This document shows positions 2,837-19,782 of a stretch of DNA of 41,639 nucleotides, piece after piece. The DNA lies in the NCBI GenBank assembly GCA_021806565.1, contig JAJZXK010000020.1, positions 1 to 41,639 of the forward strand. Reading direction: 5' to 3'. This DNA comes from Bacillota bacterium (GTDB taxonomy: Bacteria; Bacillota; Sulfobacillia; RBS10-35; JAJYVN01). Numbering within the stretch: the first letter of the stretch is position 1; each line of letters begins with the position of its first letter. Under the pieces are notes generated by a model. The model did no database searches. It worked only from the letters and a program-made list of their open reading frames with translations, and had not been told where the DNA came from. The position numbers and the translations under genes were made by a program.

Positions 2837-4135
2837 CTACACACCCACGCCAAGGGGCTGAGTGGTCGCCTGACTCCGGCCCATCCCCTGGTAGTCCGCC
2901 CCTGCCCGGACCCATTCCCGTTCACAGAGGGCGTTGCGCCCGTCCACCACCAGAGGGTGCATGCCGTTCATGCGCGCCACGGCGGTGACCGGGTCCACCG
3001 TCCGATACTCCGGCCATTCCGTCGCCAGCACGACGGCATCGGCCCCGTTGAGCGCGGGGATCGCCCCGTCCGCCCACGTCACGTGTGGCGGCAGTCCTCC
3101 CGGCGCGCAGACCACGGGATCGTGGACCACCACCCGCGCCCCCCGCTCCAGCAGGAGTTCCGCCACCCGCACCGCCTGACTCTCCCGCACATCGTCGGTA
3201 CCGGGCTTGAAGGCCACGCCCCAGATCGCCACCCGCCGGTCACGCAAAGAGCCCAGGCGGGTCATCAGGCGGTCGACCAACCGCACGGGCTGTTGCAGAT
3301 TAACCTCGATCACCGCCCGCAACAGACGCAACTCACTTCCAACCGCCCGGCTCAACGCCGTCAGTCCCCGCACATCCTTGGGAAAGCACGATCCCCCATA
3401 CCCCAAACCCGCCCGCAGGAAGCTGGGGCCGATGCGCGGATCCATACCCAGGCCCTTGGCCACCACCTCGATATCGGCACCGAAGTGCTCCGCGACAACC
3501 GCCATCTCATTGATGAAGGAAATCCGCATCGCCAAGTGGGCGTTGGCCGCCACCTTGATCAGTTCCGCCGTGGGGATGTCCACCGCCAGACGCGGGCTGG
3601 ACAACCCCGGATAAAGGGCGAAAACCCGCTGGTGGATCCAGGGCTCGTCGGCCCCCACCACGATGCGCGACGGATGCACGCTATCCTGTAGCGCCCGCCC
3701 CTCCTGCAGGAACTCCGGGTGCGCCGCATATCCGTGCCCCGTCGCGGCGAGTTGGACGCCAAGCCGCGTCCCAGTCCCCGGTGGTACCGTGGAGCGCACG
3801 ACGAACACCGCCGGCGGCAGGCCGGCCATCTCGGTCGCCACCCCCTCAACCTGGGACAGGTCGCTGGATCCGTCGGACAGTGAGGGCGTGCCCACGCAGC
3901 AAACGACAAGGTCCGCCGACTCCGCATCGCGCAATGACGCCCGCAGGGCAACCGACGACCCCAGGGCCTTCCAGGCATGTTCGAGGGCTTCCTCGTGAAA
4001 GGGTAGGTGGCCTTCGGCCAGACAGGAGCGCCGATCGTCCCGCTGTTCCACCACCGCCACATCGTGTCCGCCCAACGCAGCGGTGACCGCGCTCGCCACC
4101 CCAACCGGCCCCGCACCCACCACCGCTACGCGCAT
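2837..4135 (-). CDS. ugd: UDP-glucose/GDP-mannose-type 6-dehydrogenase
   Basis: 432 residues, the usual length for UDP-glucose 6-dehydrogenase. It begins with the NAD-binding GAGPVG motif (residues 7-12). Further family motifs follow: RSTVPPGTG (~114-122), HPEFLQEGRALQD (~139-151), a central dimerisation helix with ELIKVAANAHLAMRISFINE (~191-210), and GYGGSCFPKD with the catalytic cysteine at residue 250. The C-terminal UDP-binding domain contains WGVAFKPGTDDVRESQA. The enzyme performs the two-step NAD+-dependent oxidation of a nucleotide hexose to the uronic acid, for example UDP-glucose to UDP-glucuronate, supplying an acidic sugar for the polymer. The ATG start opens directly onto the Rossmann fold. 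It lies 39 bases after the flippase stop and is part of the leftward operon. UDP-glucose as substrate is the most common case but is inferred; UDP-GlcNAc or GDP-mannose enzymes share these motifs. Confidence 0.9.
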   Translation of the reverse strand: MRVAVVGAGPVGVASAVTAALGGHDVAVVEQRDDRRSCLAEGHLPFHEEALEHAWKALGSSVALRASLRDAESADLVVCCVGTPSLSDGSSDLSQVEGVATEMAGLPPAVFVVRSTVPPGTGTRLGVQLAATGHGYAAHPEFLQEGRALQDSVHPSRIVVGADEPWIHQRVFALYPGLSSPRLAVDIPTAELIKVAANAHLAMRISFINEMAVVAEHFGADIEVVAKGLGMDPRIGPSFLRAGLGYGGSCFPKDVRGLTALSRAVGSELRLLRAVIEVNLQQPVRLVDRLMTRLGSLRDRRVAIWGVAFKPGTDDVRESQAVRVAELLLERGARVVVHDPVVCAPGGLPPHVTWADGAIPALNGADAVVLATEWPEYRTVDPVTAVARMNGMHPLVVDGRNALCEREWVRAGADYQGMGRSQATTQPLGVGV

Positions 4136-4173: not shown

Positions 4174-5553
4174 CTACGCGCCAGAGGCGATCAAGCCACT
4201 GCGACGCAATAGCCCCATTCCCAGCCGCCGCGCCTCGTCCAAAGCGATACGGGCCACGCTGCGCAGATCGCCCAACGTCGGGGCCACCGCGCGCCAGCCG
4301 TCATCCTCCTGCCGGCTCCAAAGCGCCAGTACCACCAGCAGATCCAAGAGGTACGAGACCGACCCGGCCAAACCCGCGCCCGCGATACCCCAGCGGGGAA
4401 TCCACCACCACAGCAGCACCGCACCGGACGCGGCCCCCACAACCTCGCCCACTGCTGGTATCGCAAAGCGCCGCAGCGCGTAACAGCCCTGATACAGCAC
4501 ACTCAGCGACGCACCGCAGATGCCCGCCGGTGCGAGCGCGACGATGGCCGGCCACGCCCCGACGTACCGCGGCCCATAGACCCAGCGCAACATCGGCCAG
4601 GCTCCGACCAGCAACACGCAACCGGCGGCCGCGAACGCGAATACGCCACGGCGAAAGGCAAGCGAAGTACGGCGGCGGATATCCTCCGGAGTATCTCCCG
4701 CCACCATCGGAAAGAACACCGTTCCAAACGCCCCCGCCACCATGGCCACGACGGTCAGACTCGAGGACGCCACCCCATACCACCCGATCTCCCGCGCCGA
4801 AAGCCAGGCACTGGCGATCATCTGGTCCAGTTGGGCGTTGAACATGCTTGCCAGGCTGATCGCATAAAAGCGAACCCCCATCGCCGTCAACTGCTGCGCG
4901 GTCCGCAGCAGAAGGCGGCGTCCGGTCCGCACCGGCGGCAATCGCGCCCCGATGCGGAAGGCCAGCACCAAAACGGGGGCGGAAGCGAGAAACGAAGTCC
5001 CCCAGGTGACCACGACCTGCGCATACGGGGTGAGCCGCCCGAGCACGGCAAGCACGACCAGCGCCAGGGTGGAGACCAGCGCCCGCGACACGTTCATCCA
5101 GTTCAGCCAGGCGAAGGACTCGTGCACGGAGAGCAAGGCGGTACCCACCAGCACGGTGGTGCTCAAGCTGGAAAGGATGGCCCCAGTGAGCACCCATGGG
5201 CCGAGCCCTGGCCCCAGATGGCGCAGCACCCGGGCGGCAAGCAGGGCGCAGGCCGCAGCCGAAATGCCTCCCCAGGCGACGGACAGCAGGACCGCCATCC
5301 AATAGATGCGTCGCCGCTCGCCCTGCCCGGCTCGCGCATACAGCGTCGTGAACGCGGGGCTGAGCCCGGCGTTACCCAGCATCGCAAAGACACCGGGCCA
5401 GAGCACGATCGCGTTGAAGATCCCCTTGTTGGCGGGCCCCATCACCCGGGCGGCCAGAATCCCCGAGGCAAGGTTGATCGTCAGGACCACAGCATTGACG
5501 CGCAGGACCGCCTGCACCCATGCCACAATGCGTTGCCCTTTGCTTATCGGCAC
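4174..5553 (-). CDS. Wzx-like polysaccharide flippase (MOP/MVF superfamily)
   Basis: About 459 residues of repeated hydrophobic helices with the layout of oligosaccharide flippases: an early helix containing LTINLASGILAARVMGPANKG, where the R-x-(L/M)GP loop is typical of the family, a mid-protein ARLPPVRTGRRLLLRTAQQL amphipathic loop, and MFNAQLDQMIASAWLSAREIGWYGVA, the second-half hallmark with an LD-x-x-(I/L) motif. It would flip the undecaprenyl-diphosphate-linked repeat unit outward. The start chosen is the GTG at 5553, which has GGGGATGGGG at ~8 bases. An in-frame GTG at 5637 would add 28 polar residues but has no visible ribosome-binding site. It lies between the GT4 gene at 5656-6819 and the dehydrogenase gene in a tightly packed operon. 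Confidence 0.85.
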   Translation of the reverse strand: MPISKGQRIVAWVQAVLRVNAVVLTINLASGILAARVMGPANKGIFNAIVLWPGVFAMLGNAGLSPAFTTLYARAGQGERRRIYWMAVLLSVAWGGISAAACALLAARVLRHLGPGLGPWVLTGAILSSLSTTVLVGTALLSVHESFAWLNWMNVSRALVSTLALVVLAVLGRLTPYAQVVVTWGTSFLASAPVLVLAFRIGARLPPVRTGRRLLLRTAQQLTAMGVRFYAISLASMFNAQLDQMIASAWLSAREIGWYGVASSSLTVVAMVAGAFGTVFFPMVAGDTPEDIRRRTSLAFRRGVFAFAAAGCVLLVGAWPMLRWVYGPRYVGAWPAIVALAPAGICGASLSVLYQGCYALRRFAIPAVGEVVGAASGAVLLWWWIPRWGIAGAGLAGSVSYLLDLLVVLALWSRQEDDGWRAVAPTLGDLRSVARIALDEARRLGMGLLRRSGLIASGA

Positions 5554-5655
5554 GGCGTGGGCCCCATCCCCTGGACCCGCCACCGACCCACCGGCGCGCA
5601 CCGCCCGGCGTCCATCATGGTCGCCCCCCACCCACACTGCGCAACCGCGACGGTG

Positions 5656-6819
5656 CTACGCAAACTGAAACCGCGCGTCCAGGGCTCGCTCCCCGCCGGC
5701 CTCCTGCCACTGGCGCAGGTTCCGGGTCATCCCGAGGCGGAAAGCCCGGACGGAAAAACGCTCCGCGTGCGTGCGGATCGCCCCCCGATCCCACGCCGCG
5801 GCTCGAATCTCGCGCAGCCCCGCGGCGAACGCCTCAGGGCTGCCTCCAGACGTCAGTACCCCCGTGAGGCCGGGGCGCTGGGAGTCGAGCGCCCCTCCGG
5901 CCGCCTGCGCCAGGACCGGGGTGCCGGCGGCGTTCGCCTCCACAGACACCATGCCGAAATCCTCCACGCCCGGCATGACCAAGGCGTGCGCCTCCCCGAG
6001 AATGCGCCGCTTCTCCGCCTCGGACACCCGCCCGGCGAACGACACCCGCGGCCCCGCCATGGCACGCAAGCGCGGCAGGTCCGGCCCGTCTCCGACGATC
6101 ACAAGGCGCTCGCCCGCCATGGCGGCCGCGGCGATCGCCAGGTCGATGCGCTTGTATGGGATCAGACGGGAGAGCACACAGAAGTAGCGACGGGGACGGA
6201 AGGATACGGGGATTCCCTCCACATCGACTGGGGGTGGCAACACCGCAGCCGCTCGGCCCCACCGCCGACCGATCCGCTCGGCCACCACGCGGGAGTTGGC
6301 GAGCAACATCCCTGGTCGGCGACCCGCGCCGCGATCCCACGCCTGCAGCGATGGCACGGCCATCCGACCCACAGCCTTGACGACGCCCGGCCACGGTACG
6401 TCGCGCATGTAATCGGCATAGTCCCACGCAAAGCGCATGGTGTTGTGGATGTATGCCACGTGGCTGCGGCCCGGGATGCGTGCCCCGTGCGCGAATGCAC
6501 TGGACGAACTGAGCACGAGATCGAAACCCTCGACCCGCAGCGATTCGGCCGCCTTGGGCAGAAGGGGTAGGTAGCGTTTGAAGGCGCACAGGTCCGGCAT
6601 CCCGGGCCAGTGCTGCAGAAAGGAGGTTCGGAATTCGGCACCGGCCATCTCCGGCGGGAGAACGTTGCGATTCACCGCGATGGTATAGATCGGCGCCTCG
6701 GGGAACATGCGGTGAAAGACCGCGGCGACGCGTTCCGCCCCACCCCACTGGGTGAAGGAATCGTGCACCAACGCGACCCTGGCATCCGGGACCGACCGTG
6801 GCTGCACCATGGCACTCAT
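5656..6819 (-). CDS. GT4-family glycosyltransferase (mannosyltransferase-like)
   Basis: About 387 residues. The N-terminal domain begins VALVHDSFTQWGGAERV, the acceptor-side signature of a GT4 subgroup often annotated as mannosyltransferases. The middle has HVAYIHNTMRFAWDY. The C-terminal domain has YFCVLSRLIPYKRIDLAI, LVIVGDGPD and VEDFGMVSVEANAAGTPV, the E-x7-E donor site. It probably works on the cytoplasmic face on the lipid-linked repeat unit. The start is the ATG at 6819, preceded by GAAGGGG at ~9 bases; the frame is open for 60 more codons upstream, but that part is not glycosyltransferase-like. This is the first gene of the five-gene leftward run GT4-flippase-ugd-GT4-Wzy. The 385 bases upstream separate it from the HTH/degenerate-GGDEF gene, so a promoter for the run is expected there. 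Confidence 0.85.
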   Translation of the reverse strand: MSAMVQPRSVPDARVALVHDSFTQWGGAERVAAVFHRMFPEAPIYTIAVNRNVLPPEMAGAEFRTSFLQHWPGMPDLCAFKRYLPLLPKAAESLRVEGFDLVLSSSSAFAHGARIPGRSHVAYIHNTMRFAWDYADYMRDVPWPGVVKAVGRMAVPSLQAWDRGAGRRPGMLLANSRVVAERIGRRWGRAAAVLPPPVDVEGIPVSFRPRRYFCVLSRLIPYKRIDLAIAAAAMAGERLVIVGDGPDLPRLRAMAGPRVSFAGRVSEAEKRRILGEAHALVMPGVEDFGMVSVEANAAGTPVLAQAAGGALDSQRPGLTGVLTSGGSPEAFAAGLREIRAAAWDRGAIRTHAERFSVRAFRLGMTRNLRQWQEAGGERALDARFQFA

Positions 6820-7204
6820 GCGGACCGGCCCCTTCCCCGCCCTGGACCAGTGATCCGAACCGGGGCCCGCAGCCAACCAGGCGAGGGACTCTGAAACGGC
6901 ACTGCCAGCGGCAAAGTCAAGATATCGCGACCCACCCGGAGCCACAGTGCAGCGAGGCGTCTCAGCCTTGGTCCAGCAATCGTCTCGGCTACCACCCAAA
7001 GGAAGCCAGAACGGTCACGCACACGCCCGTGGATACGGCCGTCGTACAGAAACGCATCTAAATTTTCCCGAGAATCTTTCAGATCAGGATGCCACGGTTG
7101 GTCGTTGGGGAAACGGGCGGGTCGTCTGCGAACGCCTGACCATGCGATCCAAGACCCGCTGCGATGGACTTACCCGGAACGACGATGCGCCCGGGGTTGG
7201 CATC
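6820..7204 (-). promoter_or_regulatory. Intergenic region upstream of the glycosyltransferase-flippase operon
   Basis: About 385 bases without a convincing gene lie between the HTH/degenerate-GGDEF gene and the operon that starts at 6819. Part of it (about 7055-7085) is clearly more AT-rich than its surroundings. On the minus strand a TTGACT hexamer occurs at 6915-6920, but no good -10 box follows at the normal distance, so I mark the whole stretch as the probable promoter/leader region rather than a defined promoter. It is the obvious place for a polysaccharide regulator, including the neighbouring HTH protein, to act. Confidence 0.35.
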
Positions 7205-7855
7205 TCAGTCTCCCATTGACAGGCCCGCGGCCCTGCCCAGGCTGCGTTCGGCGCTACGGCAAAGATCGTCGCGGGCCGCCAGCTGGCTGACACGGCGCAA
7301 CAGCGCCTGGGCACCCTCTCCGGGGCGCCAGCGGGCCGCACCGACGGATACCCGCGCGTCCAGACGGCGCAACCTGGTCGCAACCCCGTCGCCGGCCCGA
7401 TCGTCCATGGCGGACATCACGACGAGGTAGCGGTCCGCACCTGAAGGAAACACCGCATCTCCCTGGCGGACGGCCCGCGCAAGCACGAAGGCCAGCGGGT
7501 GGCCCGCGCCCACCGTCGGCGGACCCATCACCAAAAGCACCACCAGAGGCACGCCCATGCGGCTGGCACGCGCCATGTGCCGCGCCAACGCACGCACAAG
7601 CGCCTCCTGACCCATCGAGCGGCTTGACGGCGTGCTCCGATTGGCGACGCGGCGCACCGCTGGGCGCGTTTCCGCCGTGGCCACGGCTGCGGCAGCCTCC
7701 CGCAGCAGCTTCGCGGCGGCCGCCCGCAGGTGGCGACGAACCGATGTCGGACTCAAACCCAGTTGAACCGCCACGTCGTCGGGGGCAGCCCCTTCGGCCA
7801 CAAGTCCCAACACCGAGCGTTCCCGCTCAGTAAGCAGATGGGTCGGGCTGGGCAC
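7205..7855 (-). CDS. LuxR-type HTH protein with degenerate GGDEF domain retaining the I-site
   Basis: 216 residues. Residues ~7-55 form a LuxR/GerE-like helix-turn-helix (LTERERSVLGLVAEG, then VAVQLGLSPTSVRRHLRAA). Residues ~80-200 align with the GGDEF domain of the protein at 18690-19439, for example VSVGAARWRPGEGAQALL against FSAGVAQWRVGEGISALV. Where the paralogue has RAGD-LMVRW-GGDEF, this protein has RQGD-AVFPS-GADRY (residues ~130-143). The RxxD inhibitory c-di-GMP-binding site and its five-residue spacing are kept while the catalytic motif is lost, so it should not be a cyclase. Family knowledge (PelD, PopA) shows that degenerate GGDEF domains can act as c-di-GMP receptors through this site. 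I infer a c-di-GMP-responsive DNA-binding regulator of the surrounding polysaccharide genes. The start is the GTG at 7855; its ribosome-binding site is weak. Confidence 0.7.
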   Translation of the reverse strand: MPSPTHLLTERERSVLGLVAEGAAPDDVAVQLGLSPTSVRRHLRAAAAKLLREAAAAVATAETRPAVRRVANRSTPSSRSMGQEALVRALARHMARASRMGVPLVVLLVMGPPTVGAGHPLAFVLARAVRQGDAVFPSGADRYLVVMSAMDDRAGDGVATRLRRLDARVSVGAARWRPGEGAQALLRRVSQLAARDDLCRSAERSLGRAAGLSMGD

Positions 7856-8104
7856 GCCGCATACCCCGCGATCTTTGCACTCCGTGGACGAAGACCCACA
7901 GGCCGCACACCCACGCCTGCGGCCGCCACATAAGACCCGTCCCTGACATGACGGTACCGCACCCCCCCGCTCGACACAGTGCCGCAGCCGGTGCCATGGT
8001 CGGTCTCAGACTCCACCGCGGTGTGGTGCGCCGCAACGCAGGGGGCAAAAGCACACACGGAGAAGCGTCTTGCGCCGCGCACCCTTTCCGCTGCAGCCAT
8101 CCGG

Positions 8105-8120
8105 TACAATCCTGGGCATG
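8105..8120 (+). promoter_or_regulatory. -10 box TACAAT immediately before the PAP2 start codon (leaderless candidate)
   Basis: TACAAT at 8105-8110 is followed after seven bases by the ATG at 8118-8120. With the usual -10 to +1 distance, transcription would begin at or within one or two bases of the start codon, so the mRNA would be leaderless. No Shine-Dalgarno sequence is visible before this ATG, which agrees. The -35 region is poor: TTTCCG at 8085-8090 is only 14 bases away. Confidence 0.5.
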
Positions 8121-8813
8121 CGTCGAGGTGGCGGTTGGCTTCTGACCTGCGCGACGATCGGGCTGCTCGCGGGCAATCGCAGTGTTGTGCGGTGGGACGT
8201 GCGGGCTGACGCGTGGCTGGCACATCAGGTCCATGCACTGACGCCGTTGCTGCATGTGGTTTGGCCGCTGGGAAGCCCCCTAGTCGCCAGCGGCCTTGCC
8301 GTCGCCGCCACGCTGCTCGCGGGGCCGGATTGGCGTCGTCGCCGCTTCGCATGGGTTTTGCTCGCCGTCGGCGGCTTGGCGGAACTGAGCAGCAAGGTTC
8401 TCGGCCTGGGCAGGCCCACCGCCATGCCGGCGATACCGGTGCTGCCGGTCTTGCGGCTTGGACTGCGTCCGGCATTCCACGCCATCGGGCGGCCGGTGCC
8501 CGCGTGGCTGGCGGCCATGGTGGCCGCCGTGCGCCTGCGGGGCACCTACCCCAGCGGCCATGTGATGCGCCTCGCGCTCATCCCGGGGTTCCTCTTCCGC
8601 CGCAGGGGTCAAGCCGCGGCCTTCGTCGTCGCACTGGTGGCCGGCCTGGCGGTCGTGGCCACCGGGGGACATTCGGTCACCGACGCCCTCGGCGGTCTCT
8701 GTCTCGCCCAGGCACTCCTTTGCTTCTGGCGGGCATCCTCTCCGCCGTCCGCCGTCCCTGAGACGTCTCCGGAGTCACCGTCACCAAGAGCATCAGGAAC
8801 CGCCCCTAAGTAA
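8118..8813 (+). CDS. PAP2-superfamily membrane phosphatase
   Basis: About 231 residues with several hydrophobic helices and the three PAP2 phosphatase motifs in order: K-VLGLG-RP (motif 1, usually K-x6-RP), YPSGHV (motif 2, PSGH) and GGHSVTDALGG (motif 3, usually SR-x5-H-x3-D; here the SR is replaced but the histidine and aspartate remain). Such proteins dephosphorylate lipid phosphates or diphosphates at the membrane surface. In a polysaccharide locus the likely job is recycling undecaprenyl diphosphate to the monophosphate, though lysophospholipid substrates are possible. The start is the ATG at 8118, chosen because a -10 box lies seven bases upstream; the frame could extend 16 codons further, but that part overlaps the promoter. 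It is the only plus-strand gene in this half of the locus and converges with the BY-kinase gene. Confidence 0.8.
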   Translation: MRRGGGWLLTCATIGLLAGNRSVVRWDVRADAWLAHQVHALTPLLHVVWPLGSPLVASGLAVAATLLAGPDWRRRRFAWVLLAVGGLAELSSKVLGLGRPTAMPAIPVLPVLRLGLRPAFHAIGRPVPAWLAAMVAAVRLRGTYPSGHVMRLALIPGFLFRRRGQAAAFVVALVAGLAVVATGGHSVTDALGGLCLAQALLCFWRASSPPSAVPETSPESPSPRASGTAPK

Positions 8814-8890: not shown

Positions 8891-9598
8891 TCAGCGGCCG
8901 GATACGCCGGTCGCCGCGCCAACGTAGCCGTAGCCGTACTCAAACCCCTGCGGGACGCGGCGCCCGTTGAGCACCACGCCGAGCAGGTCGACGCCAGCGT
9001 TGCGCAGTTGGTCCGCCGTGCGGCGCAGGGAACGATCGCTGGTCTGGCCCGCCCGCACCACCAGGATCGCGCGTCCCACGACCCGCGCCAGCACCAGGGG
9101 ATCAGTGATGCCGCTCACCGGGGGTGCGTCAAAGAGCACGTGGTCATACTCCTCCGCCCAACAGCCACACATCTGCAGCATGGCGGGCAGTCCCAGGAGT
9201 TCGGACGGGTTGGGCGGGACCGGACCGGACCCGACGACGCTGAGGTTTTCCACGTCGGTGATGCGGACCAGTGGGGTGGCCGTCTGCCCGGCCAGGAAGT
9301 CGCTGAGACCGCTGGTCTCCGCGTCGTAATGAAACGCCTTGTGCAAAGTGGGCCGGCGCATGTCCGCGTCCACCATCAACACGCGCTTGCCCGCGGCAGC
9401 CAGGGCGATCGCCAGGTTGACGCTGCAAAAGGTCTTGCCCTCACCCTGGTTGCAGCTGGTGAACACCACCGAACTCTGTTTATCCTGAGGCAACAACTGC
9501 AACGAGGTCCGCATACCGCGGTATGCCTCGGCCGCGGCCGAACGCGGCTGATCCCGCAGTACCAACAGGGCCCCATCTCCCGAGCGCGGTGCCGCCAT
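8891..9598 (-). CDS. BY-kinase / CpsD-CapB-type tyrosine autokinase
   Basis: About 235 residues. It has SCNQGEGKTFCSVNLA (Walker A), VLMVDADMRRPTLHKAF (the Walker A' motif specific to bacterial tyrosine kinases) and HVLFDAPPV (Walker B). The upstream AAAEAYRGMRTSLQ segment is the oligomerisation motif seen in CapB/CpsD. The C-terminal tyrosine cluster is very short, EYGYGYVG, with three tyrosines. In Gram-positive systems the kinase is separate from its membrane activator, and the chain-length protein directly upstream (9656-11305) provides that partner. Together they control polymer length and export. The start chosen is the ATG at 9598 with GGGGGGTGG ~7 bases upstream; a GTG at 9607 would add three residues. 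Confidence 0.88.
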   Translation of the reverse strand: MAAPRSGDGALLVLRDQPRSAAAEAYRGMRTSLQLLPQDKQSSVVFTSCNQGEGKTFCSVNLAIALAAAGKRVLMVDADMRRPTLHKAFHYDAETSGLSDFLAGQTATPLVRITDVENLSVVGSGPVPPNPSELLGLPAMLQMCGCWAEEYDHVLFDAPPVSGITDPLVLARVVGRAILVVRAGQTSDRSLRRTADQLRNAGVDLLGVVLNGRRVPQGFEYGYGYVGAATGVSGR

Positions 9599-9655
9599 CG
9601 GACCCACCCCCCAATCGCCGTCCCTGGTCGCGCCCGCAGGCGCACCGCCATGCCG

Positions 9656-11305
9656 CTACCCCCGAACGAACGGAATCACGGCCAGGGTCGGCAGCGATGC
9701 CGCGCGCCGGACATCCTCCGGATTCTTGACGGTGTTGTCGAGCTGTTCGAGCAGGAACGCCACGCCGCAGGCCGCCACCAGACCGACCAGCAACGACAGA
9801 GCAAGGTCGAGCTTCTTGCGCGGCGACACGGGAACCGACGGCGTCGTCGCCGGGGCGTCCAGTTGGATCAGCGCCTTGCCGGTGGCCACGGCCTCCTGAA
9901 CCTTGGTGGCGGTGATCTTCGCGGTGAGCGTCTGGTAGGCGGAACTGAGGTTTTTCACCTCATACTTCGCCGATGCCACCGCAGCCTGAGCCGCCGTCGA
10001 TTGCCCCTGCAGGTTCTGCAACTGATTTTGCAGGGTCGGCAGTTCCGCCCCGAGTTCCGCCACCGCCGCCCGCTCTTCCGCCACCGTCACCTGAGCCGCG
10101 CTGAGTTGCCGCGACAACGACTGATACACGGGGTTGGGGGCGACCGTCACCGTCGGCGACACCTTGGTCGGCGCCAGGGTCTTCGGGGTGGAGCGGATCT
10201 GGATCTGCAACTCCTGTTCCCCGGCCAGGGCGGCCTTCAGGCTCACCTTGGCCTGAGCGTAGGCCGAGGCGAGGGCAGACGCCGACTGACTGGAACTGCT
10301 CGACCCGCTGGGGCTCGGCGGGCTCGCCGATTGGGTGGACATCTCACGCTGCAGTTCCGCCACCCGTGCCTGGTCCTCAGCCACGACGACCGCCTGCTTA
10401 GCCAAGTCACCCTTGAGCGACTGGTATGCCGGGTTGGCCTGTGGCGACGCGCTGGTGGTCGAGGTGCTGTTGGAGGTGCGGATCGTCGCTGGCACCCCGC
10501 GCAGGCTGGCCTGGAGGGCGGACTCGGCGCCAAGCGCGGATTGCAGCTTGACCTTCGCCTGCGCATAGCCCTGCGCCAACGAACTCATCTGTCCGGTGTC
10601 CGCCTGGATCGTCGCGCCGGCCACCGCTGAGGCACCCGGCCGCTCCTCATCCTTGGCCAACTTCGCGGACGCCGCGCCGAGTTGCTTGCCCAATGAGGAC
10701 GCCTGTCCCTTGAGCAGAGTCAGGGCCTTGGCCAGCCGTCCCGCCACATTGTGGCTCTGGTCGGTGATAAAAGCCTGGGCGACGGCGTTGGCGATGGTGG
10801 CCGCCAAGCGCGGGTCGTGGTTGGTCGCCGAGATGGTCACCAGGCTCGTGCCGGCGACCGCCCCCGGGCTCACCATCCCGCCAATGGCATCGGCCGGAAG
10901 ATCGATCCCCTTGGCCTTCAGCGCCTTGGACGCGGAGGCCAGGACGGACGGGCTGGTCATCTCCCACTGATAGGTTTGGAGAGAGGCGGCGGGCAGGACC
11001 GACACTGAGTTGACGACACCCTGCAGATCGGTGGCCTGACCGACGGTCGGCGTTGACTGCCCGTTGGGGTTGGAGTTCAGCAGGCTGCCCATGTTGACGG
11101 TCGCCGTCGCCCGATAGACCTTGGGTAACACAAAGAAGGTCACCACGCCGGTGGTGCCGACCGCCGCCGCCACCACCAGGGCCATGACGCCCTTCCACTT
11201 GCCGAGCACATGCAGAATGTCGCGCAACTCCACGGCAGCCCCGGAACCGCCGCCTGGGCTGCCCACGGCCGCCGCCGTTCCCGGTCCGAGTCTCTCCATC
11301 CGCAT
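9656..11305 (-). CDS. Wzz/CapA-type chain-length determinant with internally duplicated coiled-coil
   Basis: 549 residues. It has a cytosolic N-terminus, a first membrane helix at ~38-60 followed by PKVYRATATV (the Wzz entry motif), a long extracytoplasmic helical region of ~430 residues and a second membrane helix at ~500-520. It ends NPEDVRRAASLPTLAVIPFVRG, the cytosolic Wzz tail that contacts the kinase. The periplasmic-type region is long for the Gram-positive members of the family and holds a direct duplication: residues ~241-322 and ~343-424 repeat with a period of 102 residues. The linkers are rich in Ser, Thr and Pro. It probably forms the oligomeric cage that sets polymer length and activates the BY-kinase encoded next. 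The start is the ATG at 11305 after GAGGGGG; a second ATG at 11299 is possible. Confidence 0.85.
   Translation of the reverse strand: MRMERLGPGTAAAVGSPGGGSGAAVELRDILHVLGKWKGVMALVVAAAVGTTGVVTFFVLPKVYRATATVNMGSLLNSNPNGQSTPTVGQATDLQGVVNSVSVLPAASLQTYQWEMTSPSVLASASKALKAKGIDLPADAIGGMVSPGAVAGTSLVTISATNHDPRLAATIANAVAQAFITDQSHNVAGRLAKALTLLKGQASSLGKQLGAASAKLAKDEERPGASAVAGATIQADTGQMSSLAQGYAQAKVKLQSALGAESALQASLRGVPATIRTSNSTSTTSASPQANPAYQSLKGDLAKQAVVVAEDQARVAELQREMSTQSASPPSPSGSSSSSQSASALASAYAQAKVSLKAALAGEQELQIQIRSTPKTLAPTKVSPTVTVAPNPVYQSLSRQLSAAQVTVAEERAAVAELGAELPTLQNQLQNLQGQSTAAQAAVASAKYEVKNLSSAYQTLTAKITATKVQEAVATGKALIQLDAPATTPSVPVSPRKKLDLALSLLVGLVAACGVAFLLEQLDNTVKNPEDVRRAASLPTLAVIPFVRG
10034..10585 (-). 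repeat. Two tandem diverged copies of a ~82-codon unit inside the chain-length gene (period 306 bases)
   Basis: Copy 1 covers 10340-10585 and copy 2 covers 10034-10279. At protein level both carry Y-AQAKV near the start, a TP/TS-rich linker, NPxYQSL in the middle and VAExxAxVAELxxE near the end, so each copy is helix-linker-helix. The copies have diverged at DNA level, so this is an old in-frame duplication and not a recent slippage event. Confidence 0.75.
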
Positions 11306-11314
11306 CCAACCCCC

Positions 11315-13666
11315 TCAGCCCACAGGGCGCGCCGCGCCCGCCCAGCGGGTCGCCGTACGCTGTGCGGTCTGTGCCTCTGCAAGTGCCGGACCAGCCGGAA
11401 GGTGCAACAACCGCGCCGCCTCTGCCCGCTGACCTTCCGCCGCCAGGGCCGCCGCCAGCCAACCCAAGGCCACCGGGTCTTGTTGGGTCGCCACCGGTTT
11501 CAGCAGGCTGGTGGCGCTACCGTAGTTCCCCACTAGGACCGCGGCCTCGCCTAGCGACAGCCGCAGGTCCGCAGGCACCGACCCAGCCGGAGTATCGGCC
11601 CCACGGACGCGCCGTGCAGTGCCATAGGAAGTGTCAAGGCGTGTCGCAGCCCGCAACGCCTCGCCTGCGGTTCGCGGATGGTGCTGCGCCAAATCTGCCT
11701 CTCCCTGTGCGACCAGGGACTGTGCGACGGCGGCGTAGGCGCGCGGATCGAGGGGAAAGGACTTGAGCAATTGGGCGGAAATCCGTTGCGCCACGGTGCG
11801 CCCCCCCGCCATGGTGGCGGCGGCCAGAGCGGTCTCCATCGCCGGCAGGTTCCCCGGATCGTCCCGCAGTGCGGCGGTCGCGTCCACGAGCGCCCGGGCC
11901 CGTACCGCCCCGCGTCCATCAGCCTGGTAAGCGGCCGCCTCCAGTTGCGCCAGACCAGCGTGGATGGCCGACGAACGATTCACCAGCACCTCCGCCCGTA
12001 GTTCGGCGTGGTAGGCGGGTACCAACTGGTCCGCCTGCGCCGCGGCCACCCCGAAGACCTCCAGACGGTGGGCATACGCCTGCCGGCCGGCGACCACGAT
12101 CACACCCAGGGCCAGAACGCCACTCAGACCCAGACCGAGGAGCCCCCGGCGACGATCAGCCCCCAGCGGCGGCGTGATCGGGTCGTCGGGAGCCACCGCA
12201 GCCCGGACCGAGGCCACCACCAGCCAAAAGAGTAGGGCCAGCGCCGGGATCGAGAGGTCGAAATCGATCATCGCATGCGCCCAGAGCCCGAAGCCGGCCA
12301 CCCCAATACCCCAGACCAGATCACCACCCGCATGACCGCGCTGTCGCCAGGCCGTCCGCAGCAGCAGCGGACCCACCGCGAGCAGGGCGATGCCGGCCGC
12401 GAGCCCACCACCGATCCAGGCCTGCAACACCGCCTGATGGGCCTCGCTGGACCAATAGAGCGTGTTCTGAATGGTGTGGTAGAGGGCCTCCCAGCCGCCG
12501 CCCCCGGACCCAAGCCATGGGTGGCGCCAGGCGAGTCGCGCGGCGTCCATCCACATAGCAAAGCGACTGGTCGCCCCCGCCGCGCCGAAACCGATCGACG
12601 ACACACGGTGCACCAGCCGTTGACGGAAGATTCCCGCACCAGCCACCGCAGCAAACCGCGCGCCGACTACCAATAGGAAGACGACCACGCTGACCGCATA
12701 CGCGCCTAGACCGATCAGCATGGCCCGTCGCGCGGCCGGCGACCATTCCTGGCGGTGCCAAGCGCGCCTCAGGCTGCGATACCCCGGAGGCGCGACCGCA
12801 CCGAGACCGGCCGCAGCCAACAGGACCACGACCGCCCGGCCGGAGGCCCCGTGCGCCGCGGCCCCCAAAAACGCCCGTGACAACAGCAACCCGGTGGCGA
12901 GCATCCAGGTCGCGAGGCCCGCGGCGGCCCCGCGCCCGTCGCGACGCAATCCGATCACCCAGACGCTCAGCGCCAGCACACACGCCAGCCAACCACCACG
13001 CGAGAAGGTGCCCACCAGCGCAAGCCCGACGACACCGAGCCCCGCCCCGTACGCGGCCAGGACCCATTGGCCATAACGGCTGCGTGGCCGGGCCAGGGAT
13101 TCGGCCACCAGGGCCAGACCCGCGACCAGCGCCATCCCGAGCCAGGCGGCCAGCGCGTTGGGATACTGCAGAGTGGACATCATGCGTCCCTGGATGAAGG
13201 CGTACGGAAAGTGCAGCCAACGCGCCGCCGCGAGGGCCGCCACCAGAGCCAGGCCGACGCCGGAGCCGAAAGTGAACCGACCGACGACCCGAAGGGCATG
13301 CGGTCCGCGCATCACCTCGACGGCCGCCCAATACCACCCGAGGTAGAAGACGGCACGCAGTGCGGCAAGCAATGCCGGATGCGGCGCCACCGGATGCGCC
13401 GCGGCACTCAGCACATACCCCGCTGCCGCCGCGAGCGCCACGCGGTCCAAAGGGTGCCGCCACGGCAACCAACGGCCGGCGACGGCCCGATAGACGGCCA
13501 CCACCGCGAGGAAAACCGCTGCATACATCTCAAACGGCAAGAGGGCGCTCTCGAAAAAGAGCCCCCGGAAAAAGACCGCCACCGCCAGCAGGCCGAGAAG
13601 CCCGAATGGTAGCAGGGCACCCAGGGCATCCACCCCCGTCGCGCCCCTGGACGAACCCTGGGCCAT
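11315..13666 (-). CDS. Wzy/O-antigen ligase-like membrane protein with C-terminal helical (TPR-like) domain
   Basis: About 783 residues. Roughly the first 500 are membrane helices with the Wzy_C pattern: a GTFSRGGWLA motif inside a run of helices, and a large outer loop with a GSGGGGWEALYH segment. The last ~230 residues are soluble, alanine-rich and helical, with repeated A-x-x-L-x-x-A-x-x-A spacing and stretches such as FPLDPRAYAAVAQSLVAQGE that look like tetratricopeptide repeats. Wzy_C-TPR proteins are common in Gram-positive polysaccharide loci. The probable role is polymerisation or ligation of repeat units, with the tail serving as a protein contact surface. The start is the ATG at 13666, just after a strong AAGGAGGGGG at 4-8 bases; longer frames from 13729 lack this. 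It stops 9 bases before the chain-length gene starts, so the two are one transcription unit with the kinase. Confidence 0.82.
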   Translation of the reverse strand: MAQGSSRGATGVDALGALLPFGLLGLLAVAVFFRGLFFESALLPFEMYAAVFLAVVAVYRAVAGRWLPWRHPLDRVALAAAAGYVLSAAAHPVAPHPALLAALRAVFYLGWYWAAVEVMRGPHALRVVGRFTFGSGVGLALVAALAAARWLHFPYAFIQGRMMSTLQYPNALAAWLGMALVAGLALVAESLARPRSRYGQWVLAAYGAGLGVVGLALVGTFSRGGWLACVLALSVWVIGLRRDGRGAAAGLATWMLATGLLLSRAFLGAAAHGASGRAVVVLLAAAGLGAVAPPGYRSLRRAWHRQEWSPAARRAMLIGLGAYAVSVVVFLLVVGARFAAVAGAGIFRQRLVHRVSSIGFGAAGATSRFAMWMDAARLAWRHPWLGSGGGGWEALYHTIQNTLYWSSEAHQAVLQAWIGGGLAAGIALLAVGPLLLRTAWRQRGHAGGDLVWGIGVAGFGLWAHAMIDFDLSIPALALLFWLVVASVRAAVAPDDPITPPLGADRRRGLLGLGLSGVLALGVIVVAGRQAYAHRLEVFGVAAAQADQLVPAYHAELRAEVLVNRSSAIHAGLAQLEAAAYQADGRGAVRARALVDATAALRDDPGNLPAMETALAAATMAGGRTVAQRISAQLLKSFPLDPRAYAAVAQSLVAQGEADLAQHHPRTAGEALRAATRLDTSYGTARRVRGADTPAGSVPADLRLSLGEAAVLVGNYGSATSLLKPVATQQDPVALGWLAAALAAEGQRAEAARLLHLPAGPALAEAQTAQRTATRWAGAARPVG

Positions 13667-13757
13667 CAGGCCCCCTCCTTGGCCTCCCGGTCCACCGACC
13701 GGTCGTTCGTCCCCCTGCATCGCTTGCATTGATGACAGCGACTACAGTAAGGGAGAA

Positions 13758-13793: not shown

Positions 13794-14453
13794 TCAGGCC
13801 CCCCGCCGCTTGGGCCGCAGGGTGGCCAGGACCCCACCACCCACGAGCAACACGGCACCGAGGATCCCCATAAACGGCCCAGCGCCGGTCTTGGGCAGTT
13901 GCGCCGCGTTCTTGCCACCACCCACCGACCCGTTGCCACCGAATGGCACGGGACCAGGAGGCGGTAACTGCAGTCCTTTGGGCGCCTGCGCGTAGACGGC
14001 GACCAGGACGGCCTTGTTGTAGGCGGTCTGCTCGTACGCCGTGACACTCTTGAAACTGGTGCCGTTGGGCGCGTTGATCGGCAAACCGCTGTAGGTGGTC
14101 TTCGTTCCGGCCGTCAGCGCCCCAGTCTCACGCGTCTGCGGGACCAGGACCGAGGTCTTGCCCTTACCCTGCGCGAAAACCGCAACGTACGCACCCGTAC
14201 CGGAGCTGGCCTTCGGTGTGAAGGTCAGGGTCGTCTTCCCGCTCGCCACCGCGCTGAGGGCCGCTGTAATCCCCAGTTTGGCCCCGGCTGGCGGCGCCGC
14301 CCATGCCGCTGGCGCCACCACCAACGCGCCCGCGACCGCGATGCCCACCCCCACCACCCTGCCGAGCCGCCATCCGGCCGCGGCCCCGAGCGGTGCCCGT
14401 CCCGGGCTGGTTGCCGCACCGGCGACCCGTGGATCCTTGCGCGCCTCACCCAT
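13794..14453 (-). CDS. LPXTG-type cell-wall-anchored surface protein
   Basis: About 219 residues. An N-terminal signal peptide (a basic stretch, then VVGVGIAVAGALVVAPAAWA) ends in an AWA-A cleavage site. The mature part is ~130 residues and rich in Gly, Thr, Lys and Ala, with a beta-rich look (TLTFTPKASSGTGAYVAVFA). A Pro/Gly-rich spacer (LPPPGPVPFGG) precedes the sorting signal LPKTG at ~186-190, a hydrophobic helix (FMGILGAVLLVGGGVLA) and the basic tail RPKRRGA. Sortase should cleave between Thr and Gly and link the protein to peptidoglycan; no sortase is encoded in the window. The start chosen is the ATG at 14453. A frame start at 14579 is ruled out because that codon lies in the promoter's -10 box; a GTG at 14465 is an alternative. 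The gene has its own promoter and terminator. The function of the mature domain is unknown. Confidence 0.8.
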   Translation of the reverse strand: MGEARKDPRVAGAATSPGRAPLGAAAGWRLGRVVGVGIAVAGALVVAPAAWAAPPAGAKLGITAALSAVASGKTTLTFTPKASSGTGAYVAVFAQGKGKTSVLVPQTRETGALTAGTKTTYSGLPINAPNGTSFKSVTAYEQTAYNKAVLVAVYAQAPKGLQLPPPGPVPFGGNGSVGGGKNAAQLPKTGAGPFMGILGAVLLVGGGVLATLRPKRRGA

Positions 14454-14577
14454 CCCTCCGCTCACCCCCCCAGCCCATCCACAAAAACGACCGCCCAGCG
14501 CGGCGCCACCGACCACCGCAGGTATGCACCCGCAGCACCCACGGTAGAATCCGACTTCCCAGTCCCCGAGCGACGCC

Positions 14578-14607
14578 ATTGTAGGCCACCGTGGCAGGTG
14601 ATGGAAA
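14578..14607 (-). promoter_or_regulatory. Sigma-70-type promoter of the LPXTG gene
   Basis: On the minus strand TTTCCA (14607-14602) and TACAAT (14583-14578) are separated by 18 bases. The -10 matches consensus at 5 of 6 positions and the -35 at 4 of 6. Transcription would start near 14571, leaving a leader of about 105-115 bases before the LPXTG start codon. It also shows that the longest open frame of that gene (from 14579) cannot be its true start. Confidence 0.55.
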
Positions 14608-14845: not shown

Positions 14846-16216
14846 GTGCCGCTATCCCAATACCGCAGAGAGTTCAGTACCTTTCTCGACGTTCTCGTCG
14901 CGGTCCTCGCCTATGCGCTGGCCGTGCAGTGGCACGTCGGCGGGTTCGCCGGCGGCGCCAATCTCTGGTATGTGGAAATGGCACCGACCATCGTCGCGAC
15001 TTGGTGGATCCTATCGCTGCTCATCCGCCAGGACCTGCCCTACCGGTTGGGGGGCACATGGCGGGAGTTGCGGGAGACCGCCCTGCTCCATATCGTCGGT
15101 GCGGTGCTGCTGCTGGCCCTGAACTTGGCGACCAAGCACGACGCCGTCAGTCGTCTGGTGCTCGTTGGCTTTCCGGTGCTCGCCGCCCTGGCCTCCACGG
15201 CGATCCGCATCGGCATGCGTAGCTGGTTGGGCTGGAGGCGCAGGGGCGGACACGATGTCCACCATGTACTGCTGGCCGGACCGGCGACCCCCGTGCAGCG
15301 ACTGGCGGCATCCCTGCTGCACCGCGACGCCGGCCTCGTCCCGCTCGGGGTGCTGCTGCCGCCCGGCGACGCCGACGCTGGGGGCATGTCGCTGCCGATG
15401 CTGGGCGAGTACGACCGTCTCGCCGACGTGCTGCACGACCGCGTCGTCGACCAGGTCGCGTTCGCCATGCCTTTGGACGATGGCGCCCTGCGACCCCTGG
15501 TTGAGACCTGCCTGCGGGAGGGCAAGCCGGTGTGGCTTGCGACCGATGCGTTCGGCGCCCGCCTGCTTGGGAACCGCCCCGATCAACTCCTGGTGTTGTC
15601 GGCGGCGCGCGACTCCGTCAGCCTGAGGCTCAAGCGGCTGATCGACATCGGCATCGCGTCTGCGGCCCTGCTGGTGGCGGCACCGTTGCTCGCGGCCTGC
15701 GCCCTGGCCGTCCAACTCGACGACCCGGCGGGACCGGTGATCTTCCGCCAGAGTCGCGTCGGGCTTCACGGCCGTACGTTCACGGTTTACAAATTCCGCA
15801 GTATGGCGACCGACGCGGAACACCGCCGGGCGGCCCTGCAGGACCACAATGAGATGTCTGGTCCGGTCTTCAAGATCCGCAACGACCCGCGCATCACCCG
15901 CGTGGGCCGCTTCCTGCGCCGCTACTCCCTGGACGAGTTGCCGCAGTTGTGGAACGTCCTGCGCGGCGACATGAGTTTGGTCGGCCCCCGGCCCTCGCTT
16001 CCAGACGAGGTGCGCCAATATGAGCCGGAATTCCGGCGGCGGCTCGCCTGCCGTCCGGGGTTGACCTGTCTTTGGCAGGTGTCCGGCCGCAACACGGTCG
16101 ACTTCCGCACCTGGATGGAACTGGACCTGCAGTATGTAGACAACTGGTCTTTGGGACTCGACCTGCAGATCCTAATGCGCACCATTCCCGCAGTGTTCAA
16201 CGGCTCCGGGATGTGA
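14846..16216 (+). CDS. Polyprenyl-phosphate sugar-1-phosphate transferase (WbaP/CpsE-type initiating enzyme)
   Basis: 456 residues. The N-terminal ~120 residues hold four or five hydrophobic helices. Residues ~140-260 form the CoA-binding-like Rossmann-fold domain typical of large initiating transferases. The C-terminal ~200 residues are the catalytic bacterial sugar-transferase domain: KRLIDIGIASAALLVAAPLL (re-entrant membrane helix), VIFRQSRVGLHGRTFTVYKFRSM, PRITRVGRFLRRYSLDELPQLWNVL with the catalytic DE pair, GDMSLVGPRPSLPDEV, and RPGLTCLWQVSGRN. It moves a sugar-1-phosphate from a UDP-sugar to undecaprenyl phosphate, the first membrane step of repeat-unit assembly. The start is the GTG at 14846 after AAGGGGGGG at ~9 bases. 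It points right, away from the rest of the polysaccharide operon, with a short cupin gene after it. Confidence 0.92.
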   Translation: MPLSQYRREFSTFLDVLVAVLAYALAVQWHVGGFAGGANLWYVEMAPTIVATWWILSLLIRQDLPYRLGGTWRELRETALLHIVGAVLLLALNLATKHDAVSRLVLVGFPVLAALASTAIRIGMRSWLGWRRRGGHDVHHVLLAGPATPVQRLAASLLHRDAGLVPLGVLLPPGDADAGGMSLPMLGEYDRLADVLHDRVVDQVAFAMPLDDGALRPLVETCLREGKPVWLATDAFGARLLGNRPDQLLVLSAARDSVSLRLKRLIDIGIASAALLVAAPLLAACALAVQLDDPAGPVIFRQSRVGLHGRTFTVYKFRSMATDAEHRRAALQDHNEMSGPVFKIRNDPRITRVGRFLRRYSLDELPQLWNVLRGDMSLVGPRPSLPDEVRQYEPEFRRRLACRPGLTCLWQVSGRNTVDFRTWMELDLQYVDNWSLGLDLQILMRTIPAVFNGSGM

Positions 16217-16271
16217 GGCCCGGGATACGCCGAACACTGGACGGAAAACTGACGATCAGGGGGGATCCACC

Positions 16272-16745
16272 ATGGAAGGCTGCGGCAGCGATTCCCCAGG
16301 GCGCCATCAGAACGGCTTGGCATCCAACCTCGACCCAGGGCACGAACCGGATGTGCTCACCGCGGGGCAAGCCGCCATCCATGCGCCGGCGGCCATGCAC
16401 GTCGTCCCGAAACCATGGGGGCGTGAGGTCTGGTGGGCCGTCGCCGACCAGTACGTGGGCAAGCGGCTGGAGGTGACCGCCGGCCACTGCCTCAGCCTGC
16501 AATACCATCGGCGCAAGCATGAAACCCTGTACTTCCTGTCCGGTGACGTGCGCCTGCAATTGGGTGACGAGCGGCGAATCGTGGGGCCGGGCTATGTGGC
16601 GGTGGTCCCACCGGGAACGGTGCACCGCATGGAGGCCCTGACGAATGCGGTCATCTTCGAGGTGAGCACCCCGGAGTTGCAGGATGTCGTGCGGTTGGAA
16701 GACCGTTACGGCCGCGCGGCCGCGCTCAGCGCGCCCAGAAGCTGA
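16272..16745 (+). CDS. Cupin-fold protein resembling the C-terminal domain of type II mannose-6-phosphate isomerase
   Basis: 157 residues. From residue ~42 the sequence follows the cupin layout: PKPWGREVWWAV, YVGKRLEVTAGHCLSLQYHRRKHETLYFLSG (first cupin motif with metal-ligand histidines and glutamate) and PPGTVHRMEAL (second motif, histidine ligand). This single-domain form often occurs in capsule loci and is usually annotated as mannose-6-phosphate isomerase-like. It may interconvert fructose-6-P and mannose-6-P for GDP-sugar supply, or isomerise another sugar. The start is the ATG at 16272 with AGGGGGG ~7 bases upstream; the first ~40 residues are unlike the family and could be linker. It follows the initiating transferase by 55 bases on the same strand. 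Its last 20 bases overlap the end of the opposite-strand FkbM gene. Confidence 0.75.
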   Translation: MEGCGSDSPGRHQNGLASNLDPGHEPDVLTAGQAAIHAPAAMHVVPKPWGREVWWAVADQYVGKRLEVTAGHCLSLQYHRRKHETLYFLSGDVRLQLGDERRIVGPGYVAVVPPGTVHRMEALTNAVIFEVSTPELQDVVRLEDRYGRAAALSAPRS

Positions 16746-17577
16746 GGCCCATCCCACCGCCGTAGGGGTCGCGCCGCAGCACCTCTCGCAGGCCGGCGGC
16801 ACGCAGCAGGCCTGCGCAGCGCTCCAGCAGATCGTGGCTGTGGAATTCGAAGACCAGCCGCCGGGTGCGCCCCAGGGAGCGCGGCGCCCCGGTGAAGCAC
16901 TCAGCTTCCATGCCCTCGATATCTACCTTCAACAAGTCAATCACTGGAACGTTCGGCCCCAGTTCCCGCTCGACCAAAGCATCGAGCGTCTCGCAACGCA
17001 CCCAGCGCGGAAGACCGCCCCCGGCCGCCCGCACCAATGAGGCGCAGGGGGTGTCACCCGCACACGTCCACCCGGTGGCACACGCCAGACCCTGTGGTCC
17101 GTGCGGTAGCAGCAACTCCAGCTCGCCCCCCCGCTCCGCGACCGCCGACCTCACCCAGTGCACCTGCACACCCGGGTTGCGGGATTGGACATACCCCAGG
17201 TTGCGTTCTCCGAGCGCGGCGGACTCCGCCACGGGTTCGACGGCAACCAGGGTGCCGCGCCGCAGCAACGGTATCGCCCAGGCTGCAAACAAACCGAGGT
17301 TCGCCCCCACGTCCAGAACACACCACCCGGGGCGCGGCAGGAAACCTTTGTGACAGTACATGTTGGAGATGAAGATCTCGCGCGCCTCGGACACGTCACC
17401 TCCGTGCCCCATCCACAGCGGACCGGCCAGGCGTGTCTGAACGGGAACACGGTCTGAGGGCAGGGAGACGTCACCATATGCCGCCACGACCTGACGCAGC
17501 AGGCGGTCATCGGAGAGCAAAGCAGGAATACGCCACGGATAGTTGGTCAGCACACGGGCCACCGTGTGCAGGCGCAT
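16726..17577 (-). CDS. FkbM-family SAM-dependent methyltransferase
   Basis: About 283 residues. It has WCVLDVGANLGLFAAWAIPLL (SAM-binding motif I, D-x-GAN-x-G), LVAVEPVAESAALGERN (motif with the acidic ribose contact), a TLDALV segment and PVIDLLKVDIEGMEAECFTGA, the FkbM hallmark LKxDxEGxE. It closes with RRLVFEFHSHDLL. FkbM proteins methylate hydroxyl groups, often on sugars of polysaccharides or secondary metabolites, so O-methylation of the repeat unit is likely. The start chosen is the ATG at 17577, because longer frames run into the epimerase gene, whose stop is at 17616. A GGAGG lies ~18 bases upstream, which is too far, so the start is uncertain. It lies downstream of the epimerase gene on the same strand. 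Confidence 0.82.
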   Translation of the reverse strand: MRLHTVARVLTNYPWRIPALLSDDRLLRQVVAAYGDVSLPSDRVPVQTRLAGPLWMGHGGDVSEAREIFISNMYCHKGFLPRPGWCVLDVGANLGLFAAWAIPLLRRGTLVAVEPVAESAALGERNLGYVQSRNPGVQVHWVRSAVAERGGELELLLPHGPQGLACATGWTCAGDTPCASLVRAAGGGLPRWVRCETLDALVERELGPNVPVIDLLKVDIEGMEAECFTGAPRSLGRTRRLVFEFHSHDLLERCAGLLRAAGLREVLRRDPYGGGMGLSFWAR

Positions 17578-18689: not shown

Positions 18690-19439
18690 CTACTCAGATC
18701 GATGGGCGCGCCGACGCTTTTGCCGATACATGGCCTGGTCGGCCCGGCCGACCAGCGCCGAGATCCCTTCTCCGACACGCCATTGCGCCACACCGGCCGA
18801 AAAGGCCACCTCTGGCACCACGGCACGCAGACGATCGACAGCGGCCCTTGCCCCAGCCGCATCGGTTCCTGGGAGGATGGCCACGAACTCGTCGCCACCC
18901 CAACGCACCATCAGATCGCCCGCGCGTCGCGCCCGGACGACCGCCCGCCCGAAAAGCCTCAACATCCGATCGCCGCCAGCGTGTCCGAGGTGATCATTGA
19001 CGGCCTTGAACCCGTCCAAGTCAAGGAAGACGACGGACAGGGGCAAGCCGGTGCGCCGGGCCACCGCGATCCGCGAGCGCAGCACGCGCTCACCAACCCC
19101 GCGAGGAGGCAATCCCGTTACACTATCGCGATGCCACCGACCCGGAAGGCGCAGCACCGTTGGCCGGCCATAGCGTCGCGTGAGCGATCGCATCAGCGCA
19201 CCTACGCAGCGGCAGACCTCTTCGGCGCCGACTCCGTAGCGGTGCTCGATGTCGTGCAGGCTCGCACCACGCTCCAGCAGGCGCAGCACCTGGCGCTCCC
19301 GACGGGTGCTGCGCCTGCTGGAGGCGACCCTCCGCAGCCCCATCGCAGCAGGCCCGCCGTGCCGCCGTCGTGCGGGTTCCGTGCATTGCTCCCGCACGGA
19401 GGCCGAACCGTCCGTCGGCGACTGCAGCCCGTCCGACAT
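18690..19439 (-). CDS. HTH-GGDEF protein, probable active diguanylate cyclase
   Basis: About 249 residues. After a ~45-residue polar leader, residues ~45-92 form a LuxR-like helix-turn-helix (TRRERQVLRLLERGASLHDIEHRYGV is in this region). The GGDEF domain follows: DSVTGLPPR, LSVVFLDLDGFKAVNDHLGH (Mg/GTP-binding loop), and RAGD-LMVRW-GGDEF, meaning an intact catalytic GGDEF motif and an intact RxxD inhibitory site five residues before it. The end has FSAGVAQWRVGEG and GRADQAMYRQK, the standard C-terminal helix. It should condense two GTP into c-di-GMP with product inhibition. A DNA-binding N-terminus on a cyclase is unusual. The same architecture, with a dead active site, occurs at 7205-7855. 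The start chosen is the ATG at 19439; GGAGGGG lies 11 bases upstream, slightly far, and a GTG at 19448 is the alternative. Confidence 0.82.
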   Translation of the reverse strand: MSDGLQSPTDGSASVREQCTEPARRRHGGPAAMGLRRVASSRRSTRRERQVLRLLERGASLHDIEHRYGVGAEEVCRCVGALMRSLTRRYGRPTVLRLPGRWHRDSVTGLPPRGVGERVLRSRIAVARRTGLPLSVVFLDLDGFKAVNDHLGHAGGDRMLRLFGRAVVRARRAGDLMVRWGGDEFVAILPGTDAAGARAAVDRLRAVVPEVAFSAGVAQWRVGEGISALVGRADQAMYRQKRRRAHRSE

Positions 19440-19782
19440 TCCCTGCACCGCCCCTCCTGCCGTCGAACCCCACGGCGGCCCCGATCCCGCCAGCGGCTAC
19501 CACGGACGAGACGTGTCAACAGGCTACGGTGTTCGACCCCCAACGCCAGTGCCATCCAGAGTCTCACATCGGCTCTGGGAGTTGGGGTCGAATGATGGAA
19601 CGACGCCGCGCCTCACGGCCGTGCGGGGAGCAAAGAGGAGTGACCGCAACATACTGCACTCGGCAGAGCGGCTCCGGCGCAGGAATCGACGACGACCCTG
19701 ACGTAGCGACCGCCTGGGGGTATTGGTCATGCCTCGCCGCGGCGCCACATCCGCATCCCTTTCTCCGCGCAAGGAACCCGCT
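19440..19782. promoter_or_regulatory. Divergent intergenic region between the HTH-GGDEF gene and the helicase-associated gene
   Basis: About 340 bases with no supported gene. On the minus strand a perfect TTGACA hexamer lies at 19519-19514 (TGTCAA on the plus strand), about 75 bases before the GGDEF start. A clear -10 box at 16-18 bases is not visible, the best being GTAGCC at 13 bases. The rightward gene is served by AAGGA just before its ATG at 19783. I see no hairpin or repeat of note. Confidence 0.3.

Follow-up and report, generated by a model that had tools for sequence, protein, structure and literature searches.

The window, by which is meant the whole stretch of 41,639 nucleotides that was analysed, contained a polysaccharide locus, the gene of a candidate regulator, here called D, and that of a paralogue of D, here called A. 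The following genes were assigned:

2837..4135, minus strand, UDP-glucose/GDP-mannose dehydrogenase (Pfam)
4174..5637, minus strand, polysaccharide flippase, Polysacc_synt (Pfam)
5656..6999, minus strand, glycosyltransferase, downstream of D (Pfam)
7205..7855, minus strand, candidate regulator D, LuxR-type HTH and degenerate GGDEF, 216 aa (GTG start; full-length homologues exist)
8070..8813, plus strand, PAP2-like phosphatase, divergent from D (weak Pfam match)
8891..9607, minus strand, AAA_31/ParA-type ATPase (Pfam)
9656..11305, minus strand, Wzz-type chain-length determinant (Pfam)
11315..13729, minus strand, Wzy/O-antigen ligase-like polymerase (Pfam E 2.6e-6, under the Pfam cut-off)
14846..16216, plus strand, bacterial sugar transferase of the initiating glycosyltransferase type
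18690..19448, minus strand, partner A, with intact GGDEF (RAGD, GGDEF; Pfam GGDEF E 5.3e-30) and a weak N-terminal HTH

A preliminary description of this DNA had placed D inside a polysaccharide locus, and the glycosyltransferases, flippase, UDP-sugar dehydrogenase, Wzz protein, Wzy-like polymerase and sugar transferase showed this placement to be correct. The AAA_31/ParA-type ATPase is, from its position adjoining the Wzz gene, presumably a CpsD-like tyrosine kinase. A 261-aa protein encoded in the same locus (13794-14579) gave a borderline match to a Gram-positive anchor (E 0.00068, 20 bits); despite this protein, no exosortase was found in the genome of the window. The c-di-GMP turnover genes of that genome comprised 11 GGDEF, 7 EAL and 2 PilZ matches. 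Two intergenic stretches without assigned strand are candidate operators:

7856..8069, candidate operator between D and the divergent PAP2 gene, with one 7+7 inverted repeat at 7901-7924
7000..7204, second candidate operator, upstream of the glycosyltransferase ORF, in which a search for an inverted repeat found none

The operator stretch proposed earlier (6820-7204) is one of these two candidates, the other (7856-8069) lying upstream of D. Operator palindromes and sigma-70-like promoters were searched for near D, and nothing clear was obtained.

Two domains were distinguished in D, with the following parts:

7706..7837, minus strand, LuxR/GerE-type HTH, residues 7-50 (Pfam GerE E 6.9e-9)
7232..7618, minus strand, degenerate GGDEF-like domain, about residues 80-208 (paralogue alignment, profile search and model)
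7457..7468, minus strand, RQGD, the primary I-site motif RxxD (R130, D133), invariant in 18/18 homologues
7427..7441, minus strand, GADRY, replacing the catalytic GGDEF motif (alignment with A)
7373..7375, minus strand, R161, the third I-site residue, equivalent to PleD R390 and PelD R402, invariant in 18/18

With 35.7 bits against a curated cut-off of 23.5 (Pfam), the HTH places D by sequence among the putative LuxR/NarL-type HTH regulators. A LuxR-like HTH had previously been assigned to the N-termini of both paralogues; it was clear in D and weak in A (GerE E 0.16). The C-terminal half of D gave no Pfam match at E<=1, GGDEF included. Since neither GGDEF_2 nor HTH_30 matched D at E<=1 (Pfam), D falls outside the PucR/CdaR family, in which GGDEF_2 is followed by a C-terminal HTH_30, whereas the HTH of D is N-terminal and of the GerE type.

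The C-terminal domain was compared with that of A. BLASTP aligned most of both lengths with 29% identity (E 4e-9) and reproduced the motif alignment of the preliminary description, RQGD-AVFPS-GADRY of D facing RAGD-LMVRW-GGDEF of A, with RQGD on RAGD and GADRY on GGDEF. The corresponding starts, both on the minus strand, are RQGDAVFPSGADRY at 7468 and RAGDLMVRWGGDEF at 18926. The metal/GTP-binding segment (DxD..N..D) of A was absent from D, and the active-site segment was missing from D and from its degenerate relatives alike. Thus D possesses neither the GG(D/E)EF motif nor the metal/GTP-binding residues of an active diguanylate cyclase.

A GGDEF-like fold of this domain, which the preliminary description had presupposed, was supported by a profile for which 13 degenerate proteins, but no active cyclase, supplied the C-terminal domain. 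This profile matched GGDEF structures in the PDB (DosC 8e-8, SiaD 9e-8, PleD 5e-3), and several relatives of D gave sub-threshold Pfam matches to GGDEF, GGDEF_2 or PelD_GGDEF. AlphaFold prediction from D alone was poor for the C-terminal domain (pLDDT 53), and Foldseek with this model recovered LuxR-type HTHs and no GGDEF; the model was set aside, its C-terminal domain being too weak. With an alignment of D and A the pLDDT rose to 77, and 46 of the 47 structure matches at E<=1e-3 contained GGDEF; this agrees with the profile and is not independent evidence, because the model was built with an alignment to a GGDEF paralogue, on which the profile search does not depend. By homologue profile, paralogue alignment (E 4e-9) and alignment-assisted model, D belongs to the GGDEF superfamily.

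Searches within the class recovered full-length HTH-degenerate-GGDEF proteins as relatives of D. Eighteen sequences, all from the same class, were aligned: D, 16 proteins of family f11, read here as Sulfobacillus-like, and one of genome G104 (family f46). Of the five invariant columns, two (E12, K49) belong to the HTH and three (R130, D133, R161) to the C-terminal domain, where no other of the 129 scored columns was invariant. These three correspond to R359, D362 and R390 of PleD and to R367, D370 and R402 of PelD, so that D carries the RxxD and second arginine of an I-site effector. The spacing from R130 to R161 was 31 residues in 17 of the 18 proteins, as is that between R359 and R390 of PleD, whose I site consists of R359, D362, R390 and one arginine from a neighbouring molecule (PMC7288161). 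In PelD, each of the substitutions R367A, D370A and R402A abolished c-di-GMP binding (PMC2170427). Invariance of the I-site residues across 18 divergent homologues shows that the RxxD of D is not a chance match; the conservation anticipated for the motif was therefore found in every degenerate relative aligned.

For comparison, 32 GGDEF-motif proteins were sampled from the same class and the triad was counted by hand from the list. RxxD occurred in 23 and RxxD together with the R390 equivalent in 17, so the full triad is common in cyclases yet far from universal. The difference from the degenerate proteins (18/18 versus 17/32) gave 3e-4 in Fisher's exact test, in which the sequences are related and not independent. 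As about half of ordinary GGDEF proteins also have the triad, it could be kept for structural reasons. Several GGDEF-motif proteins of the window's own genome (L078, L081, L082, L083 and L084) lacked the RxxD arginine.

A structural role of R..D..R would fit a reading of D as a transcription factor in which the GGDEF-derived domain is a sensor of another ligand (GTP, ppGpp or another cyclic dinucleotide) or serves only in dimerisation. A similar role may hold for PucR-type regulators, of which MabR combines a degenerate GGDEF fold and an HTH with RHGR in place of RxxD (PMC11617747), and two of six HTH-degenerate-GGDEF proteins of the Symbiobacterium type lack part of RxxD. By their titles, the PDB entries 9g85 and 9g86 present PleD with ppGpp or pppGpp besides c-di-GMP. 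We nevertheless regard this alternative as unlikely, since in 18 proteins devoid of the rest of the GGDEF signature strict conservation fell on exactly the three residues of the c-di-GMP site and on no other C-terminal residue.

In the phylogenetic tree, the 16 D proteins of f11 formed one group (100/99 support), while the copies from the window, G107 and G104 were long branches outside it. A split supported at 91/93 kept all degenerate sequences together, and a single clade of D proteins including that of the window was not rejected (AU p 0.18). Because of the long branches outside the f11 group and this AU value, a single origin of the D proteins is treated as possible only. The window D had a branch length of 1.61 changes per column, has lost W138, present in the 17 other homologues, and has a C-terminal domain too divergent for Pfam, as might be seen in a decaying, functionless paralogue. 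Its frame is open, however, its HTH is intact, the I-site triad stands at exact spacing and similarity to D proteins extends over the full length; decay therefore appears very improbable.

The A-type proteins gave strong GGDEF matches and no HTH model above cut-off, and the D proteins the reverse. That D keeps the HTH and A-type proteins keep the catalytic GGDEF suggests a shared HTH-GGDEF ancestor followed by reciprocal loss. Outside the class, a phylum-wide search of 399 drawn genomes yielded no match at E<=1e-10 covering both domains; a scan of the genome contigs with D as the single query protein returned one locus, matching in the HTH only. We tentatively suggest, with somewhat less than even confidence, that reciprocal loss gave rise to a class-restricted family of one-component c-di-GMP sensors (LuxR-type HTH and I-site-only GGDEF), in which the inhibitory site would have become the receptor and the linked catalytic copy the writer.

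Near D-type genes of relatives, varying combinations of AAA ATPase, GT2/GtrA, PMT-like, GH79-like, MshEN-GT2 synthase, exosortase and glycosyltransferase genes were observed. The polysaccharide proteins of the window, compared with these loci, gave matches almost only for D and A proteins; the loci are therefore alike in kind and not made up of homologous genes. As the window's genome gave no exosortase match, the exosortase association is limited to the relatives. D was linked to an intact-GGDEF A-type gene in the window and in genomes G059, G123, G121, G122 and G107. The distance was about 11 kb in the window and at most about 16 kb in the five relatives; in G107 the two genes overlap. In G115 and G116, D is overlapped by a GGDEF gene other than the A type. 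Several genomes (L094-L099) showed no A-type gene next to D, and in several genomes other than those with a linked or overlapping GGDEF gene the stretch read contained no GGDEF gene that was seen. In the majority of Sulfobacillus-type genomes D adjoins a gene, mostly on the opposite strand, for an AAA_16 ATPase of 600-650 aa:

L064:4846-6699, AAA_16 ATPase beside D, with homologues in L026, L063, L066, L073, L074 and L094-L099

These associations might indicate that D works chiefly through protein contact, its partner being the linked GGDEF protein or, in relatives, the neighbouring AAA ATPase. In an anti-enzyme or trigger complex of this kind, D would not act through c-di-GMP-controlled DNA binding on its own. 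GGDEF domains dimerise, and the PdeR/DgcM/MlrA trigger system offers a precedent (PMC12564702). This reading is harder to reconcile with those genomes in which an A-type gene was not seen beside D, with the AAA gene, for which no match was found in the window, and with the intact I site, which a domain serving contact alone could do without; we judge it improbable, though less so than decay of the gene.

It is rather probable, in our view, that D is a one-component c-di-GMP-sensing transcription factor in an exopolysaccharide locus. Its C-terminal domain would descend from a diguanylate cyclase that lost the catalytic GGDEF and the metal/GTP segment and kept a complete I site. Intercalated c-di-GMP dimers would bind this site, most likely with the result that two protomers of D are cross-linked in the manner of PleD and WspR. 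Cross-linking would in turn control operator binding by the paired LuxR-type HTHs, and A, in the same locus, may be one local source of c-di-GMP. Beyond its computed features (two domains, active-site loss, I-site conservation and locus), we infer for D the binding of c-di-GMP, dimerisation, the DNA targets, the direction of regulation and a functional tie to A. In short, D may be described from its sequence as a LuxR-type DNA-binding head joined to an I-site effector domain like that of PelD.

VpsT (structure 3kln) is a LuxR/CsgD-type c-di-GMP-binding regulator of biofilm matrix genes. Like D it has a LuxR-type HTH, which in VpsT is under c-di-GMP control; unlike in D, the ligand site lies in a REC-type domain, the HTH is C-terminal and there is no GGDEF. 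To our knowledge, no transcription factor yet described as responding to c-di-GMP binds it at a site related to the cyclase I site. PelD, the c-di-GMP receptor for Pel polysaccharide, resembles D in three respects: it has lost catalysis, it keeps RxxD and a second arginine, and its gene belongs to an exopolysaccharide locus (PMC2170427, PMC8461298). It differs in that it is a membrane-bound GAF-GGDEF protein that acts on the synthesis machine and has no HTH. PopA and BcsE share with D a non-catalytic GGDEF-derived domain, which in these proteins binds c-di-GMP via the I site (PMC12564702, PMC8461298); unlike D they have no DNA-binding domain. In PdeL (PMC12564702), an N-terminal LuxR-like HTH is likewise fused to a c-di-GMP-related domain, although this is an EAL domain and PdeL a catalytically active phosphodiesterase (trigger enzyme). 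PucR/CdaR-type regulators (GGDEF_2 and HTH_30), among them MabR with its solved structure, likewise combine an HTH with a degenerate GGDEF fold. Their HTH differs from that of D in being C-terminal, and the RHGR of MabR is no I site (PMC11617747). PopA, PelD, FimX, LapD, PdeR and PdeL are named in the available part of the 2025 review of c-di-GMP effectors, and no HTH-degenerate-GGDEF regulator appears there (PMC12564702). The earlier statement that no regulator of this architecture has been described holds for the open-licence papers searched, the PucR type, with MabR lacking the I site, being the nearest.

Sulfobacillus-like bacteria serve in bioleaching, and the proposed role of D, if true, would predict how they control matrix production. 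On this view, a regulator in exopolysaccharide loci would have taken over the product-inhibition site of a cyclase as its sensor, tying cyclase evolution to effector evolution. The 18-sequence set supplies a directly testable residue triad (R130, D133 and R161).

Paired HTH-degenerate-GGDEF proteins were also encoded in Symbiobacterium-type genomes (L068:7863-8636 and 16030-16770; L069; L056; L070). The incomplete RxxD motifs among them were RARS in L069_5792 and APMPD in L070. Those neighbours that had Pfam matches were queuosine genes, and the pairs were left aside, probably representing a separate branch. Loci of D relatives were seen to encode a fusion of MshEN domains with a GT2 synthase of the exopolysaccharide type (L026:12553-14796, L062:13322-15568, L028:13482-15539), for which the NCBIfam MshE-related c-di-GMP-binding domain scored just under the cut-off. 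MshEN is a c-di-GMP-binding domain, and the fusion protein may therefore be a c-di-GMP-controlled synthase.
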